Positions 45,829 to 53,653 of a DNA stretch of 64,000 bases are shown piece after piece. Source of the stretch: an uncultured Elusimicrobia bacterium (GTDB taxonomy: Bacteria > Elusimicrobiota > Elusimicrobia > Elusimicrobiales > UBA9959); assembly GCA_903879915.1 (NCBI GenBank), contig CAIRNJ010000091.1, positions 1 through 64,000 of the forward strand, in the 5' to 3' direction. The position numbers and the translations under genes were made by a program. The notes beneath the pieces were generated by a model. It worked only from the letters and a program-made list of their open reading frames with translations, did no database searches and had not been told where the DNA came from. Numbering within the stretch: the first letter of the stretch is position 1; every line of letters starts with the position of its first letter.

Positions 45829-47789
45829 TTGACCAGCTTTCTGGCCGCGGCGGCTATCTTCTCCGCCGTCAGGCCCAGCGCGGCGTAAGCCTGCCCCGCG
45901 GGAGCGGAGGTCCCGAACGTTTCCACGCCCAGCACCGTGACGGGCGCGTTGATAAGGTCCTTCCAGCCGATGCCGCGGCCGGCCTCTACGGCCACTTTGG
46001 GCAGGCCGGTCACGAAGACGGAGTCCTTGTACGCCTGCTCCTGCTCGCGGAACAGTTCGAACGAGGGTACGGAAATTATCCGGGCGGCGATGCCGTCCTT
46101 TTCCAGCAGCGCGGCGGCCTCGAACAGCAGCGAAACTTCGGAACCGGAAGCTATCAGCTCTACGGCCGGGGTGGTGGAGGGGCCCCTTAAGAGGTAGGCC
46201 CCGCGCGGAACGCCGGCGGCTATTTTCTCCCGGTACTGGGTGAGCAGCGGCAGCTTCTGGCGCGACAGCGCCAGGCACGCAGGGCGCTTCAGGCGCACCG
46301 CGGTTTCCCAGGCGTGCAGCGTTTCCCAGGCGTCGGCCGGGCGCAGCACCAGCAGGCCCGGGATCAGGCGCAGGCTCATCAGCTGCTCCACCGGCTGGTG
46401 GGTGGGGCCGTCCTCGCCCACGCCGATGCTGTCGTGCGTGAACACGAAAACGGCGGGGGCCTGCATCATGGCGGCCAGCCGCAGCGCCGGGCGCATGTAG
46501 TCGGAGAACACCAGGAACGTGGCGCCGAAGGGGATCAGCCCGCCGTGCAGCGCCAGCCCGTTGAGGATGGAACCCATGGCGTGCTCGCGGATGCCGAAAT
46601 GCAGCGTGCGCGCGGGTTCGGCTGTGAAGTCCGTTTTAGTGGAAGGCCCCAGGTCGGCGGAGCCGCCGGTCAGGCCGGGCAGGCCCGCCGCCATCAGGTT
46701 GATCACTTTGCCGGAAGCCTCGCGGGTAGCCAGCGGCTTGTCGAAGAAAGTGTTCTCGGGCTTGAACAGGCCCTCGGGGATCTCCCGGCCCAGCATGGCC
46801 TTGGCGAGGTCGGCCTTCTCCGGCAGGGCCTCGCTGTAGTTCTTCCAGAGCTTCAGCCAGCGCTTGCGGTCCTTTTCTCCCTCTTCCGCCTGCTCCGCGA
46901 AACGCGCGCGCGCCTCTTCCGGTACGAAGAAAGATTCCGTCGAGGGCCAGCCCAGCTTGGCCTTGGTGGCCAGGATCTCGTCGGGCTTGAGCGGCTCGCC
47001 GTGCACGGAGTTCTTGTCCTGCTTGGGGCTGCCCCAGCCTATATGCGTTTTGGCGATTATGATGGTGGGTTGTCCGGCTTCGCGCTTGGCTTTCTTTATG
47101 GCGGAGTCGAGCTCTTCGAGGCTGTTGCCGTCCTCAACTTCGATAACCTGCCAGTCCTGGGCGAGGAAGCGCTTCTTCACGTTCTCGGTGAAGGCCAGGC
47201 TGGTGGAGCCCTCGATGGTGATGCCGTTGGAATCGTACAGGCAGATCAGCTTGCCCAGCTTCAGCGTGCCGGCCAGCGAGGCCGCCTCGTAGGAGACGCC
47301 CTCCATCAGGTCTCCGTCGCCGCAGACCACGTAGGTGAAGTGGTCGACGAGCCGGAACTCCGGCGTGTTAAGCTTTTCGGCCAGCAGCTTCTCGGCCAGC
47401 GCCATGCCCACGGCGTTGGCAAATCCCTGCCCCAGCGGCCCGGTGGTGGTCTCTATGCCGGCCGCGTGGCCGTATTCCGGGTGGCCCGGCGTAAGGCTGC
47501 CGAGCTGGCGGAATTTTTTCAGGTCCTCCATTTTGAGGCCGTAGCCGTAGAGGTGCAGCATGGAGTAAAGCAGCGTTGAGCCGTGGCCGGCCGACAGCAC
47601 GAAGCGGTCCCGGTCTATCCAGGCGGGTTCGGAGGGGGTGAATTTAAGGTGCCCGGCCCAGACGGCGTAGGCCAGCGGCGCCGCGCCCAGCGGCAGGCCG
47701 GGGTGGCCTGAATCGGCCTGCCCTACCATATCTATGGAAAGGGTCCTGAGAGTGTTCACGCAAAGTGTGTCGGTTGTGTCGAATTTCAT
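45825..47789 (-). CDS. tkt: Transketolase
   Basis: Thiamine-diphosphate enzyme that moves two-carbon units in the non-oxidative pentose phosphate pathway. The N terminus has DMVGQADSGHPGLPLG, the cofactor site has the GDGDLMEGVSYEA motif, and the pyrimidine domain has FGIREHAMGSILNG. The length of 654 fits the family. The start is the ATG at 47789, which has GGAG ahead of it and overlaps the nudix stop by four bases. Downstream gnd overlaps by four bases. The three genes form a coupled operon. Confidence 0.97.
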   Translation of the reverse strand: MKFDTTDTLCVNTLRTLSIDMVGQADSGHPGLPLGAAPLAYAVWAGHLKFTPSEPAWIDRDRFVLSAGHGSTLLYSMLHLYGYGLKMEDLKKFRQLGSLTPGHPEYGHAAGIETTTGPLGQGFANAVGMALAEKLLAEKLNTPEFRLVDHFTYVVCGDGDLMEGVSYEAASLAGTLKLGKLICLYDSNGITIEGSTSLAFTENVKKRFLAQDWQVIEVEDGNSLEELDSAIKKAKREAGQPTIIIAKTHIGWGSPKQDKNSVHGEPLKPDEILATKAKLGWPSTESFFVPEEARARFAEQAEEGEKDRKRWLKLWKNYSEALPEKADLAKAMLGREIPEGLFKPENTFFDKPLATREASGKVINLMAAGLPGLTGGSADLGPSTKTDFTAEPARTLHFGIREHAMGSILNGLALHGGLIPFGATFLVFSDYMRPALRLAAMMQAPAVFVFTHDSIGVGEDGPTHQPVEQLMSLRLIPGLLVLRPADAWETLHAWETAVRLKRPACLALSRQKLPLLTQYREKIAAGVPRGAYLLRGPSTTPAVELIASGSEVSLLFEAAALLEKDGIAARIISVPSFELFREQEQAYKDSVFVTGLPKVAVEAGRGIGWKDLINAPVTVLGVETFGTSAPAGQAYAALGLTAEKIAAAARKLVK

Positions 47790-48358
47790 GGTTTCTCCAG
47801 TAGTTTTATCTTCCACGCCTGCAAAGCTATGATGGTCTTGGAATCATGTATCTTGCCGTCTTTCAGCATGCGCCAGGCTTTTTCAAAACTCATGATCTCC
47901 ACGCGCAGGAATTCGTCCTCGTCGGGCGAGGCCGGGCCCGGGCGCAGCTGTTCCGCAATGAAGATGTGCAGCACTTCGTTGGCGAAAGCGGGAGAGGTCC
48001 AATAGGACAGGAGCGGCTTTATCTTTTTAGCGGTGTAACCTGTTTCTTCCTGGAGTTCTGCTTTTGCTCGCGCCAGGGTATCGTCCGCCGGCGAATGCAG
48101 TTTGCCCGCGGGTATCTCCAGCGTGGCTTCTCCCACCGGGTACCTGTACTGTCTTACGAAAATTATCCTGCCGTCGGGCAGCACCGGCAGCACGGCCACC
48201 GCTCCGGGGTGGTCCATGAACTCCCGCGTGGATCTCTTCCCGTTGGGCAGCGTTACCGTATCTACTCTGAACTTAATGGTCCCCTTAAAGAGCACTTTCT
48301 CCTTAAAAGTCTTCTCCACCAGCAGGTGCCCGCTGGCCGTCCTAAGATCTTTTCCCAT
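47786..48358 (-). CDS. Nudix hydrolase, ADP-ribose pyrophosphatase-like
   Basis: A cytoplasmic hydrolase of nucleoside diphosphate derivatives, likely ADP-ribose or ADP-sugars by overall similarity (GAVAVLPVLPDGRIIFVRQYRYPVGEATLEIPAGK in parts). The Nudix box is GKLHSPADDTLARAKAELQEETGY: the catalytic EL-x-EE-x-G part is kept, but the first Glu is not clearly conserved, the Arg before it is Ala, and one residue seems inserted. Activity is still likely. It is the first gene of the nudix-tkt-gnd unit and is transcribed from a -10 box six bases before its ATG. The neighbouring island lies just upstream. Confidence 0.88.
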   Translation of the reverse strand: MGKDLRTASGHLLVEKTFKEKVLFKGTIKFRVDTVTLPNGKRSTREFMDHPGAVAVLPVLPDGRIIFVRQYRYPVGEATLEIPAGKLHSPADDTLARAKAELQEETGYTAKKIKPLLSYWTSPAFANEVLHIFIAEQLRPGPASPDEDEFLRVEIMSFEKAWRMLKDGKIHDSKTIIALQAWKIKLLEKP

Positions 48359-48447: not shown

Positions 48448-48581
48448 ATGGCGGGGCGGTGAGCGGGTTAGAAAAACACAGGGTCGGCCACACCGTGGCC
48501 GCCCTTCCTCACTCGGCTTCCGCGCTTACGCAAGCGGAAGCCTCCGTGAAGGTTTTTCTAACCCGCTCCCCGCCCCGCCAT
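48448..48581. repeat. 134-nt folded element, copy 1 (left border of the AT-rich island)
   Basis: A 30-nt outer arm (48448-48477) pairs with 48552-48581 with one mismatch. Inside are two hairpins: A (48480-48505, AGGG, a bulged T, CGGCCAC, loop ACC, GTGGCCG, CCCT) and B (48515-48542, GGCTTCC...GGAAGCC with an inner GCTT/AAGC). The inverted copy at 49865-49998 has the same length and fold; the two agree at 106 of 134 positions. The 38 bases at 48509-48546 are identical in both. Confidence 0.9.
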
Positions 48582-48604
48582 TGCGTTATTGAAAATCATC
48601 CATT

Positions 48605-48613
48605 TGCTAGAAT
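48605..48613 (+). promoter_or_regulatory. Extended -10 promoter for the island genes
   Basis: TGC directly followed by TAGAAT forms an extended -10 element 24 bases after copy 1 of the folded element. The first island gene starts at 48650. Confidence 0.45.
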
Positions 48614-48649
48614 GTTTGCGACTAGTGTACAGGGCTAATTAAAAGATTT

Positions 48650-49459
48650 ATGACATGGCGAATCTGTAAAGTTTTTATCCTTAGCGGCTTGCTGGCTTTA
48701 TCTTTCTCTGTTAAGTCGAAGGCTATTGGGAAAGTAGCAGGCAAAATAGGAGATGCTGATATTGAGTTCCTGTTGTGGCAGGCAAATATTGAATGTTTTC
48801 ATCCTTATTTTGCTTTTATGGTTCAGCCATTTTTTGCTGCTCAGTCTCTGCATCATTTGGAAGATCAGATGTGTATTAATAATTGCGTCAGTGATAGTAT
48901 GTCTCCGGAAATAAGAAAAGAAGTTACGAGGAGATTATCTGATTTTTATCTCAGGCTGGATAATGAAAAAATAAGTGGTTTTCCTCTTCCAGGTGGTTTA
49001 AACACTATGCGGCCTGGGTGCGGCGCATCTAAAAACTATATTATTGAAATTATTTCCAGAGATGGGAGTCCGGAAGCTGAAGAGTTTTTTGGAAAAGTTC
49101 TGGATTCTGGTGCTAGCGAAGAAATAAATTCTGCCTTAAGGGTTTTGGCTTTTTCTCTAATTAAAAGGCCAAAATTGTACGGTAAAATTACTGAGGACTG
49201 TGATAAAGGATTGATTACGGAGGCACAAAAAATAATTAGCCATCTACGGCTAGATCCAATTCGTGCAGTTCCAGAAGCAAAAAAATTTCTCTTAAACTCA
49301 GGTAATTTTTCTGATTTTCGTAACGTTGAGATGATATATGAGGACGTATTAAAGCAAATGTTGAAAGTAGAGACTAATGCGAGAATACGTGCGGAAATAA
49401 ATGATTCGATAGCGGAGATAGAAACTGTAAAGCAAAAGAATAAAAAACGCAGCAAATGA
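48650..49459 (+). CDS. Island gene 1: exported helical protein of unknown function
   Basis: I do not recognise this 269-residue protein. Residues 1-25 look like a signal peptide (KVFILSGLLALSFSV). The rest is helical and may contain HEAT-like helical pairs, for example SGASEEINSALRVLAFSLI near residue 152. Four cysteines (near residues 49, 75, 79 and 104) could pair in the periplasm. The C terminus is a lysine-rich tail (KQKNKKRSK). Codon use is AT-rich, unlike the flanking genes, which suggests recent acquisition. No strong ribosome site precedes the ATG. It forms a two-gene unit with the next gene, 11 bases downstream. Confidence 0.65.
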   Translation: MTWRICKVFILSGLLALSFSVKSKAIGKVAGKIGDADIEFLLWQANIECFHPYFAFMVQPFFAAQSLHHLEDQMCINNCVSDSMSPEIRKEVTRRLSDFYLRLDNEKISGFPLPGGLNTMRPGCGASKNYIIEIISRDGSPEAEEFFGKVLDSGASEEINSALRVLAFSLIKRPKLYGKITEDCDKGLITEAQKIISHLRLDPIRAVPEAKKFLLNSGNFSDFRNVEMIYEDVLKQMLKVETNARIRAEINDSIAEIETVKQKNKKRSK

Positions 49460-49470
49460 GATAGATTATT

Positions 49471-49818
49471 ATGGGAACACTATTGCTTGTTTTTTTGGGA
49501 TATTTCATCTATGCCCGTAAGGAAAGTCTATATGGGCGCCTGAAAATTGCTGTTCTCGTTCCTGCTTTGGCGGGGTTTGTCTGGTGCATTGTTGCAGGCA
49601 ACATATTTGGAATAGCACTTTTTTTTACGTTATATCCATTTCTATTGTTGTTGGTTATAGGATTGTGTGCGTTTGTTGTTCTTACCGACATCGTTTTTGG
49701 GAAATTCAGGGTTTCCTCAAAATATTATCTTGCATTTAGTGGCTTGTTGTTTCTATTTTTCATTCTTTGGCATATAGCTCCTATGCTACCTGTTCCAAAG
49801 ATGGATATGAGCCTATAA
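49471..49818 (+). CDS. Island gene 2: small membrane protein of unknown function
   Basis: A 115-residue protein with about four hydrophobic segments (around residues 2-13, 25-45, 48-73 and 85-103) separated by short basic loops such as YARKESLYGRLK. It has no motif that I recognise. Its AT-rich codon use matches island gene 1 and contrasts with the neighbouring chromosome. The pairing of one exported protein and one membrane protein could form an envelope-located system, but that is speculation. Confidence 0.6.
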   Translation: MGTLLLVFLGYFIYARKESLYGRLKIAVLVPALAGFVWCIVAGNIFGIALFFTLYPFLLLLVIGLCAFVVLTDIVFGKFRVSSKYYLAFSGLLFLFFILWHIAPMLPVPKMDMSL

Positions 49819-49864
49819 ATACAAGAGCTTGGGTTTTCAAAAAAGTGCTGAATATTTTGTTCGT

Positions 49865-49998
49865 GAGCGGGCGGGGGGACCGGGCTGGAAAAACCTTCGC
49901 GGAGGCTTCCGCTTGCGTAAGCGCGGAAGCCGAGTGATGAGGGGCGCGCACGGTGTGCGCGACCCCGTGTTTTTCCAGCCCGGTCCCCCCGTCCGCCC
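49865..49998. repeat. 134-nt folded element, copy 2 (right border, inverted)
   Basis: Outer arms 49865-49894 and 49969-49998 pair over 30 positions with one G-T wobble and one mismatch. Hairpin B is at 49904-49931 and hairpin A at 49941-49966 (GGGG, CGCGCAC, loop GGT on this strand, GTGCGCG, bulged A, CCCC). It is copy 1 in reverse orientation, so the B hairpins of both copies face the island. Compared with copy 1, twelve base pairs have changed on both sides with pairing kept. Confidence 0.9.
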
Positions 49999-50140: not shown

Positions 50141-53100
50141 ATGTCACCTGAGTTCATACATCTTCATAACCACTCCGAGTATTCTTTGCTCGACGGCATG
50201 CTGCGCCTGAGCGACGGCCACGGCAACCCGTCCGAATTCCTCAAGGGCCTGGCCGCGCAGAAAGGCAACGCGCTGGCCATCACCGACCACGGCAACATGT
50301 ACGGGGCCATGGATTTTTATTTCATGGCGAATAACGCCGGCCTGAAGCCCATCATAGGCTGCGAATGCTACGTAGCCAAAGGCTCCCGCAAAGACCGCGA
50401 CAAAGCCACCGGCCGCCGCGACAACGGCCACATGACCGTCCTGGCGGGGAACGATGCAGGCTACCGCCACCTCATGAAGCTGGTTTCCAACTCTTTCCTG
50501 GAGGGGTTCTACCACGATCCCCGCATAGACAGCGAAAGCCTCGCCGAGCACGCCGACGGCCTCGTCTGCCTCTCCGGCTGCCTCAAATCCCATATAGCCC
50601 GCGCCTGCGCCGAGGGCCGCCTCGACGAAGCCCAGAAAATAGCCATGGATTACCAGGACATCCTCGGCAAGGGCAACTATTACCTCGAGCTGATGGACCA
50701 CGGCATCCCCGAAGAAGCCGCCGCCATGGCCGGTCTCCTCGAGGTAGCCAGGCGCACCGGCATCCCGCTGGTGGCCACCAACGACTGCCACTACCAGAAG
50801 AAAGAAGACTGGGAAGCCCACGAAGCCCATGTTTGTATCTCTACCGGCAAGACGCTGGATGACCCTGCCCGGATGAGGCAGACCCAGCACGAGCTCTACT
50901 ACAAATCCCCCGAAGAGATGATCAAGCTCTTCTCCCACACGCCCGAAGCCATAAAGAACACTCTCGTAATAGCCGAGAAGTGCAACATAAAAATAGATAC
51001 CAGCAAGCTGCATTTGCCGGCCTTCGACATACCGCAGGCGTACAAGGACAAGCACCCCGAAGGCGACGGTGATTATTATTATCTCAGGGACCTGTGCGAG
51101 GTGGGGCTTAAAAAGAAAGTCCCCAATGCCGGGGACGATTACCACAAGCGCCTCGAGTTCGAGCTGGATACCATCAAGAAAATGGGCTTTTCCAGCTACT
51201 TCCTGATAGTCATGGATTTCATAAACCACGGCCGCAGCATAGGCGTCCCGGTGGGCCCGGGCCGCGGCTCCGGCGCCGGCGCGCTGGTGGCCTACGCGCT
51301 CGATATCACGCGCGTGGACCCGCTGCCCAACGGCCTGCTCTTCGAGCGCTTCCTCAACCCGGGCCGCAAGAGCATGCCCGACCTGGACATAGACTTTTCC
51401 GACGACGGACGCGAAAAGGTGGTGCAGTACGTGCGCGAGAAGTACGGCGCCAGCCGCGTGGCCAACATCATAACTTACGGTACGATAAAGGCCAAGAGCG
51501 CCGTGCGCGACGTGGGCCGCGTGATGGGGATACCGCTGTCCGATGTCAACGCCATGGCGAAGCTGGTGCCGGCCGACCTGGGCACCACGCTCTACAAGGC
51601 CCTCAACGACGTCAAGGAGCTCCAGGAATACGCCCGGGACCCCAAGATCAAGAAGATGTTCGATATCGCCATGAAGGTGGAAGGCCTGCGCCGCCAGGTG
51701 GGCGTGCACGCCGCCGGCGTGGTGATCTCCAAGGACGACGTCACCGATTACGTGCCGCTGGCCAACCGCAACAACAAGGAAGTGATCACCACCCAGTACG
51801 ACGGCAACATGCTGGGGAGCCTCGGCATGCTCAAGGTGGACTTCCTCGGCCTGCGCACGCTGACCATCATAGAGACCGCCTCGGAGTTCATCCGCGCCCT
51901 GCCCGGTAAGGAAGATTTCGATATCTATTCCGTCCCGATGGACGACAAAAAAACCTTCGACCTGCTATGCGACGGCAAGACCACCGGCGTGTTCCAGCTG
52001 GAAAGCGACGGCATGAAAAAGCTGGTCAAGGGCCTCAAGCCCACGGCTTTCACCGATATCGCCGCCCTGGTGGCGCTGTACCGCCCCGGGCCCATCGAAA
52101 GCGGCATGCTGGACATGTTCGTGGACCGCAAGCACGGCCGCAAGAAGATCACCTACGACCACCCGATGCTGGAGCCGATACTCAAGGATACCTACGGCAC
52201 GATGGTGTACCAGGAGCAGGTGATGGAAATTTCCAAGAGCCTGGCCAATTTCACTCCCAGCGAGGCCGACGATTTCCGCAAGGCCATGGGCAAGAAGAAG
52301 CTGGACGCTATGGAGAAGCTGCGCGTGAAGTTCGTGGAGCAGGCCAAGAAGTTCCACGATATCCCCAATAAGCTCTCCAGCAAGATCTTCGACGATATGG
52401 CGAAGTTCGCCGGCTACGGCTTCAATAAATCGCATTCGGTGGCCTACGCGCTGGTGGCCTACCATACCGCCTGGCTCAAGGCCAACTGCCCGGTGGAGTT
52501 CATGGCCGCGCTGCTGACCAGCGAAATAGGCAAGAGCGCCGTGAATTCCGAGGACAAGGAGAACAAACTGGTCACCTACATCGGCGAGGCCCAGGATATG
52601 GAGATAGAGATAGCCGGGCCGAACGTCAACAGCTCCTTCAAGAAATTTTCCATAGAGGACCACAAAGGCAGGCCGGCGATCCGTTTCGCGCTGACCGCGG
52701 TGAAGAACGTCGGCGAAGGCGTGGTGGAGGCCATAGTGGCCGAGCGCGGCAGGAACGGCCGGTTCCGGTCCTTCGAGGAGTTCACGCTGCGCGTGGATTC
52801 CAAGCAGCTCAACAAGCGCGTGATAGAGTCCATGGCCAAAGGCGGCTGCTTCGACTGCTTCTACCCGGCCGAGAAGCCCGAGATCTCCAGGACCAGGGCC
52901 ACCGAGGCCGTGGAGGCTTTCTGCGGCGGCAAGGCGCACGACGTCAACCAGACCATGCTCTTCGGCGACGAAAAAAAGGTCGCGCCCGTGATGAACGAGC
53001 ATACGCTGCTCAAGAACGAGCACGAGGTGCTGGGCTTCTATTTCTCGGGCCACCCGCTCAACAGCTACCGCAGGCACCTGAGCATGGTCTCCAACGCGCA

Positions 53101-53653
53101 GGTGGACAAGGTGCTGGCCGGCGGCTTCGCCGAGGGCGCGGTGGTGCGCGTGGCCGGCATAGTGGCGCAGTTCAAGAACATCCAGACCAAGAAGACCGGC
53201 GAGACGATGGCCAAGTTCGAGGTGGAGGACCTGACCGGCAACCTGGGCGTGGTCCTGTTCCCCAAGAAGTACAAGATGTACGGCGCGCAGCTCGGCCCCA
53301 ACAAGGTGGTGGTGGTGACCGGCAAGGTGCAGAAATCCGATTTCGGCGAACAGAACTTCGAATTGATAGTGGAAGAGACGTACGGCCTGTTCGAGGCCAT
53401 GAACAAATGGGCCCGGGGCCTCGTGCTGACCCTGCCGGAGGGCATACTTTTCGACGAGAAGCAGCTGCACGAACTGAAGAGCGCGCTGGGCAAAAGCCAC
53501 GGCATGTGCCCGGTGTATTTCCAGGTGAACGCCAAGGGCCGCGGCGTCTACATGATAGAAACTACCGAACGGGTGGGGCTCAGCGACGCGCTGCTGCGCG
53601 AGATCGAAAAGCTGCTGGGAGATAAAACATGGAAGGTAGAAAGCGGATTCTGA
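50141..53653 (+). CDS. dnaE: DNA polymerase III alpha subunit
   Basis: The replicative polymerase. The N-terminal PHP domain begins with FIHLHNHSEYSLLDG. The palm carries the catalytic aspartates in PDLDIDFSDDGRE (near residue 415), the GPGRGSGAG fingers motif precedes it, and GYGFNKSHS and the helix-hairpin-helix region follow. A C-terminal OB domain (VVRVAGIVAQFKN) and tail complete the DnaE1 layout at 1170 residues. The ATG at 50141 is chosen because the PHP domain starts there; an in-frame TTG at 50108 is the alternative. The last 25 bases overlap the following response regulator gene. Confidence 0.97.
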   Translation: MSPEFIHLHNHSEYSLLDGMLRLSDGHGNPSEFLKGLAAQKGNALAITDHGNMYGAMDFYFMANNAGLKPIIGCECYVAKGSRKDRDKATGRRDNGHMTVLAGNDAGYRHLMKLVSNSFLEGFYHDPRIDSESLAEHADGLVCLSGCLKSHIARACAEGRLDEAQKIAMDYQDILGKGNYYLELMDHGIPEEAAAMAGLLEVARRTGIPLVATNDCHYQKKEDWEAHEAHVCISTGKTLDDPARMRQTQHELYYKSPEEMIKLFSHTPEAIKNTLVIAEKCNIKIDTSKLHLPAFDIPQAYKDKHPEGDGDYYYLRDLCEVGLKKKVPNAGDDYHKRLEFELDTIKKMGFSSYFLIVMDFINHGRSIGVPVGPGRGSGAGALVAYALDITRVDPLPNGLLFERFLNPGRKSMPDLDIDFSDDGREKVVQYVREKYGASRVANIITYGTIKAKSAVRDVGRVMGIPLSDVNAMAKLVPADLGTTLYKALNDVKELQEYARDPKIKKMFDIAMKVEGLRRQVGVHAAGVVISKDDVTDYVPLANRNNKEVITTQYDGNMLGSLGMLKVDFLGLRTLTIIETASEFIRALPGKEDFDIYSVPMDDKKTFDLLCDGKTTGVFQLESDGMKKLVKGLKPTAFTDIAALVALYRPGPIESGMLDMFVDRKHGRKKITYDHPMLEPILKDTYGTMVYQEQVMEISKSLANFTPSEADDFRKAMGKKKLDAMEKLRVKFVEQAKKFHDIPNKLSSKIFDDMAKFAGYGFNKSHSVAYALVAYHTAWLKANCPVEFMAALLTSEIGKSAVNSEDKENKLVTYIGEAQDMEIEIAGPNVNSSFKKFSIEDHKGRPAIRFALTAVKNVGEGVVEAIVAERGRNGRFRSFEEFTLRVDSKQLNKRVIESMAKGGCFDCFYPAEKPEISRTRATEAVEAFCGGKAHDVNQTMLFGDEKKVAPVMNEHTLLKNEHEVLGFYFSGHPLNSYRRHLSMVSNAQVDKVLAGGFAEGAVVRVAGIVAQFKNIQTKKTGETMAKFEVEDLTGNLGVVLFPKKYKMYGAQLGPNKVVVVTGKVQKSDFGEQNFELIVEETYGLFEAMNKWARGLVLTLPEGILFDEKQLHELKSALGKSHGMCPVYFQVNAKGRGVYMIETTERVGLSDALLREIEKLLGDKTWKVESGF

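Follow-up and report, generated by a model that had tools for sequence, protein, structure and literature searches.

What kind of element keeps its fold whilst its sequence changes, and is it RNA or DNA that folds? The question is raised by two inverted copies of a 134-nt folded sequence that lie beside the dnaE gene of an uncultured Elusimicrobia bacterium, in a 64,000-nt stretch of DNA (the window; positions 1–64,000 of contig CAIRNJ010000091.1, assembly GCA_903879915.1). As far as the searches described here show, the folded element is real and undescribed. The best explanation, and one that we consider fairly probable, is that the copies are folded-DNA ends: they would terminate non-autonomous mobile units that resemble REPINs, carry genes in some cases and are served by an enzyme acting in trans.

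An inverted pair of folded copies

Copy 1 (48448–48581, forward strand) forms the left end of the arrangement and points right; copy 2 (49865–49998, reverse strand) forms the right end and points left. These coordinates, the shared length and the opposite orientation are exactly as originally predicted. In copy 1 an outer stem of 29–30 pairs is followed by hairpin A (48480–48505, forward strand), with the conserved apex CACACCGTG and an unpaired T bulge, then a linker and hairpin B (48515–48542, forward strand), with the conserved apex GCTTACGCAAGC. The predicted long outer stem enclosing hairpins A and B is therefore present, but in the window copies it consists of 29 pairs and one mismatch rather than a clean 30. 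Fold energies are −98.5 kcal/mol for copy 1 and −102.3 kcal/mol for copy 2 (z about −13 and −10), 200 shuffles gave no fold as good, and the covariance model matches the two copies with 152 and 143 bits, respectively.

When aligned, the copies differ at 28 positions. Twelve pairs have changed on both sides with pairing kept, nine in the outer stem (one of them to G-T) and three in hairpin A; the remaining differences comprise two pairs changed on one side only and two unpaired positions. Element positions 62–99, the 38 nt of hairpin B and its linkers, are identical. The alignment agrees with the original prediction in the 28 differences, the 12 pairs changed on both sides and the 38 identical nt. 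The same behaviour is seen in other copies. Among 16 from the same genome, 36 of 55 pairs show double-sided changes, against a shuffle mean of 19.3 (none of 500 shuffles reached the observed value) and 12–16 pairs in controls with slid partners. With 83 copies the figure rises to 51 of 55 and the covariation score is 0.562 against 0.153 when shuffled, in an alignment that was fitted to the structure and in which sliding the partners lowers the score to 0.07–0.12. The compensatory pattern far exceeds chance.

A large repeat family in one lineage

The window copies are members of a large palindromic repeat family, apparently undescribed, in one Elusimicrobia lineage. In the window's own genome (G000; 3.37 Mb in 112 contigs) a BLASTN search with copy 1 gave 27 matches and the covariance model (R1) 29, leaving about 25 copies once reverse-strand duplicates and contig-end halves are removed. 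Many of these sit at contig ends, indicating that the folded element breaks the assembly; on one long contig there are 7 copies in 400 kb, which scales to about 60 per genome. Family matches were found in 45 of the 101 genomes searched (G000 and 100 relatives). Besides G000, all 31 genomes of the same genus carry the element, with 9 to at least 33 matches each, as do 13 genomes from four other genera of the same taxonomic family; among the 101 genomes there was no match outside that family. Against the possibility, raised with the original prediction, of few homologues or no covariation, there are thus dozens of copies per genome across the genus and massive covariation.

A search of GTDB contigs with the exact core pattern returned 11 stretches, of which ten belong to a single Elusimicrobia MAG and the last to another bacterial MAG. 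The same pattern is absent from viral contigs, and a phage origin was rejected for this reason. No Rfam family reached its gathering score in the window, and with permissive settings the only hits were miRNA-type hairpin models and a single snoRNA, all scoring well under the threshold; a known RNA family was accordingly rejected, in keeping with the earlier failure to recognise any known element with this fold. A literature search found neither such elements in Elusimicrobia nor compensatory mobile hairpins.

Genomic context and pair order

The copies are intergenic and lie between tandem, divergent and convergent genes alike, with no orientation preference, and a role as transcription terminator was rejected on these grounds. 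Neighbouring copies face each other: 46 non-redundant pairs within 2.2 kb comprise 43 ordered ‘> <’, one ‘< >’ and two in tandem. For ‘> <’ versus ‘< >’ the two-sided p is about 5e-12 if the pairs are taken as independent, an assumption that holds only in part, since a few pairs come from one locus in different species and the motif was used to retrieve some loci. The spacer is shorter than 100 nt and without a gene in 33 of the 46 pairs, the usual spacing being about 50 nt; of the 13 pairs more than 100 nt apart, 10 are still ‘> <’. The sole tandem arrangement seen is in G054 (L068:653-2496), where three copies about 850 nt apart have near-identical flanks.

In many copies the stem is bordered on its outer side by a terminal motif, CCGCGAGATGCNNAGTCGG, and the DNA upstream of this motif is not conserved. 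Several units bear the motif at both outer edges, whilst the window copies have a degenerate version at most. Since units with the motif at both ends show no clear target-site duplication, and the loci compared no clean empty site, movement of the pair as a unit is something that we infer. Three further observations concern the surroundings of the copies. At L258, L273, L277, L283, L252, L253 and L080 the motif often starts 10–25 nt downstream of a hairpin resembling an intrinsic terminator, a possible insertion preference. Some copies (L066, L172, L211) appear nested within the hairpin of another copy, as if folded DNA were a target. There is also a second hairpin family, with a different conserved core (GGGAAACCGTTGCGCGGTTTCCC...GGCGGGGCCCCCCTTCCCCAAAG) and locus-specific complementary outer arms, at L305 and L306 (G028, G024), L155 (G013), L215, L260, L263 and L298, several copies of which are bordered by the same terminal motif.

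Genes enclosed by the pairs

The window unit as a whole spans 1551 nt (48448–49998, no strand assigned) and, judged by pair order and by comparison with a sister species (G002), reads ‘end > cargo < end’. Its cargo comprises two forward-strand ORFs. The first (48650–49459, 269 aa, 37% GC) has a start resembling a signal peptide and no close homologue in 58 relatives, distant matches of ~30% being all that was found; the second (49471–49818, 115 aa, 38% GC) is apparently a membrane protein and was not found at the same locus in relatives. The ORFs have no match in Pfam, NCBIfam or PADLOC, and a known passenger function was therefore rejected. The cargo has 36.9% GC against 62% for the window, in which no other stretch of equal length is as low. 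To its left lies a gene for a NUDIX-type hydrolase (47786–48358, reverse strand), which by synteny adjoins dnaE genus-wide, and to its right dnaE itself, encoding DNA polymerase III alpha (50144–53653, forward strand), both named by inspection. The same two genes flank the site in most relatives, but its content has been gained or lost between species: G002 has one copy and no ORFs, and other species have 0, 1 or 2 copies, of various subfamilies, and sometimes other genes. In enclosing orphan genes of foreign appearance, the window pair is arranged as one would expect of the two ends of a small mobile gene cassette.

Ten pairs with longer spacers enclose 0.4–1.8 kb, mostly AT-rich orphan genes. 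There are seven distinct orphan cargoes at 37–44% GC, and further cargoes include an Mrr-type nuclease and a Gp49/HTH toxin–antitoxin-like pair adjoining an orphan. In G016 alone, five separate pairs hold five different orphans (89, 150, 188, 196 and 300 aa) at about 40–44% GC, the largest having no relative in 58 other family genomes. At one site, different AT-rich orphans stand beside the same copy in the sister species, a 111-aa membrane-like protein in G000 (L149:5800-6328) and a 290-aa protein with a signal-like start in G002 (L117:5001-6190); in both, this copy is accompanied by a Gp49/HTH toxin–antitoxin-like pair. At a third intergenic site the content varies between genomes, from next to nothing up to 11.5 kb. 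Its 11.5 kb insert in G008 was rejected as a mobile unit with these ends, for it holds GC-rich ordinary genes, and in the search for an autonomous parent two motif-bounded intervals of 6.5–8 kb held housekeeping genes only.

It is possible, though on the whole unlikely, that the family consists of REPIN/BIME-like repeats and nothing more: inverted doublets of about 300 nt would spread, and genes between distant copies would be incidental or later arrivals, those of the window pair being host or foreign genes enclosed by chance. The large share of pairs with short, gene-free spacers suits this reading, as does the 93% inverted order of REP doublets in Pseudomonas (PMC3116915). So does the pair at L136, whose enclosed gene, for an ordinary-looking phosphatase, occurs in both sister species, showing that enclosure alone does not prove co-mobility. 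The ‘> <’ order is, however, retained by those 10 of 13 widely spaced pairs, nearly all enclosing AT-rich orphan DNA, and the five G016 pairs each contain a different orphan of about 40% GC, which would not be expected from chance spacing. Cargo might also have entered existing pairs by another route.

Candidate enzymes

No mobilising gene was found inside any unit, and none correlated with the family in a comparison that covered Y1/RAYT, Y2 and integron integrases. The Y1 domain PF01797 is absent from G003, G015, G023, G025 and G031, draft genomes 82–93% complete that carry 24 to at least 33 copies, and present in G032, G034 and G035, all without folded copies. Neither the 14 Y1 loci nor the two Y2 loci examined contain a folded copy or the terminal motif; seven of the Y1 loci carry GGGGACAG palindromes instead. 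With the distribution and cognate-repeat tests both negative, mobilisation by RAYT was rejected. One copy, on contig C51 of G000 (L042:1461-1660), sits inside a separate palindrome, AGGAAAAGGGGACAGGCTACTTTTT, which resembles the GGGGACAG repeats flanking Y1 (RAYT) genes at L339, L341, L344 and L346. An IS91-like Y2 transposase was rejected because it occurs, patchily, in just some of the element-bearing genomes. An integron was likewise rejected, as the integrase is lacking (TIGR02249 scores above cut-off in one of 59 family genomes, G034, which has no folded element) and the box order is reversed.

These results leave room for a bolder reading, which we put forward tentatively and rate as doubtful: an as yet undescribed cassette-mobilisation system in Elusimicrobia, in which a recombinase of non-Y1, non-Y2 and non-integron type moves or swaps AT-rich genes between paired three-way-junction folds. 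If true, such a system would achieve an integron-like function by independent means.

Divergence between sister species

The closest relative of G000 is G002, with dnaE 95% identical. For most copies in G000 there is one in G002 that lies between the same genes, and movement of folded copies is therefore rare. Sister-species copies also allow arm-to-arm correction to be measured. In ten orthologous pairs of copies the outer stems have diverged by 10.0% per site, compared with 8.4% in the adjacent flanks. Counting pairs from best folds over sister-species pairs proved too noisy; counted in the outer stem only, double Watson–Crick changes number 17, as against about one expected had the arms changed independently, and a further 23 changes affect one side. 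The stems evolve about as fast as their flanks, but in step, which fits arm-to-arm correction, compensatory selection or both. Correction of this type, by template switching, is documented for quasipalindromes (PMC7202029, PMC3820800). Because the arms diverge about like the flanks, yet pairwise, it probably contributes to pairing here, and to that extent the palindrome repair offered as an alternative in the original prediction holds good.

What arm-to-arm correction does not explain is the conservation of loops, bulges and mismatches. Loops, T bulge, linkers and apexes are conserved across copies, the apex pairs of hairpin A are invariant in the 117 copies where the motif was found, and in 130 pooled outer stems mismatches are retained by position at two places. 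The fold is thus not merely a perfect palindrome undergoing homogenisation. One pair position in hairpin A is C-G in 58 copies, G-C in 52 and T-G in one. That the elements are passive long palindromes whose fold is under no selection, and in which template-switch correction of imperfect inverted repeats alone produces the compensatory changes, would agree with flank-like divergence in paired steps and with the quasipalindrome precedent. We nevertheless regard it as improbable, since unpaired apexes, the T bulge and positional mismatches have not been corrected away and since copy number and the terminal motif indicate dispersal.

Orthologues also differ in whole modules. Hairpin B differs in its entirety between some G000 and G002 orthologues. 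In some copies (L025, L026 and L027 of G000; L129 of G002) the linker also contains an additional hairpin, C, which may be present or absent at orthologous sites. These differences suggest exchange of hairpin modules among copies.

Pairing in DNA rather than RNA

Over the 83 aligned copies, G-U accounts for 53 of about 3977 standard pairs (1.3%), which is low for structured RNA. Amongst isolated mismatches in the 130 pooled outer stems, meaning those flanked by three pairs on each side and scored without favouring G-U, there are 29 G.T and 23 A.C. Selection on an RNA from either strand should strongly favour one or the other; neither is favoured, which argues against the RNA reading, and since A.C is as common as G.T it is as DNA that the stems are kept paired. 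A structured non-coding RNA family with its fold under selection would explain the conserved loops, bulges and linkers and the very strong covariation, but is most improbable in view of the scarcity of G-U, the equal frequency of A.C and G.T, the inconsistent orientation relative to genes, and the inverted doublets with their enclosed cargo. The original prediction allowed either RNA or a transposon end acting as folded DNA: the first half is disfavoured by these pair and mismatch counts, and the second is better supported, given that the copies form inverted pairs, bear a terminal motif, enclose foreign genes and occupy intergenic sites in every orientation. The family thereby provides a rare natural data set for separating RNA-level from DNA-level maintenance of a fold (G-U versus A-C).

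A model for the folded family

Taking the copies as folded-DNA ends, each 134-nt copy would be one end of a non-autonomous mobile unit made of two giant folded palindromes in inverted order. An enzyme acting in trans would recognise each end by its three-way-junction DNA fold, most likely in the single-stranded state; recognition of such a junction fits arms that are strictly Watson–Crick and free in sequence together with apexes, bulges and mismatches that are fixed. The common unit would be ‘end > ~50 nt < end’, about 300–360 nt, like an oversized REPIN. Some units would carry passenger genes, mostly AT-rich, between the ends, two in the case of the window unit. Template switching at the hairpins as the DNA is replicated would probably also help to keep the arms complementary. 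Integron attC sites and REP elements are already known to be recognised by DNA fold and not by sequence; if this model is right, the same principle operates in a large repeat family that carries cassettes, in a phylum that has been little studied.

Comparison with known systems

The closest parallels are REPINs and REP doublets, which are likewise extragenic palindromes present in many copies per genome, arranged as inverted doublets with a short spacer; on that defining point the folded family agrees with REPINs. REPINs, mobilised by RAYT (TnpA-REP), are also non-autonomous and evidently handled as folded DNA. The differences are, however, substantial. Each half is here a 134-nt three-way junction rather than a 20–40 nt hairpin, no GTAG/CGTC tag was seen and the conserved ends read CCGCGAGATGCNNAGTCGG, the arms are free in sequence, some pairs carry genes, and the family does not track Y1, the RAYT loci examined having no copies.

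With MITEs and mobile insertion cassettes (MICs) the family shares inverted ends, the lack of a transposase and passenger genes inside some units, but its ends are defined by a covarying fold instead of a fixed terminal sequence, and neither a parent IS nor a target duplication was found. Integron attC sites, too, are recombination sites of variable sequence recognised as folded single DNA strands, and integron cargo, like that seen here, often consists of orphan or toxin–antitoxin genes. An integron cassette has a single attC, though, whereas the units described here have two ends in inverted order; and in place of the attC order RYYYAAC...GTTRRRY the arms, on inspection, have the opposite order, with GTTA ahead of TAAC, and not every copy shows it. 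Although it departs from REPINs and from integrons in features that define each, the folded element works like REPINs and, in part, like integron or mobile insertion cassettes.
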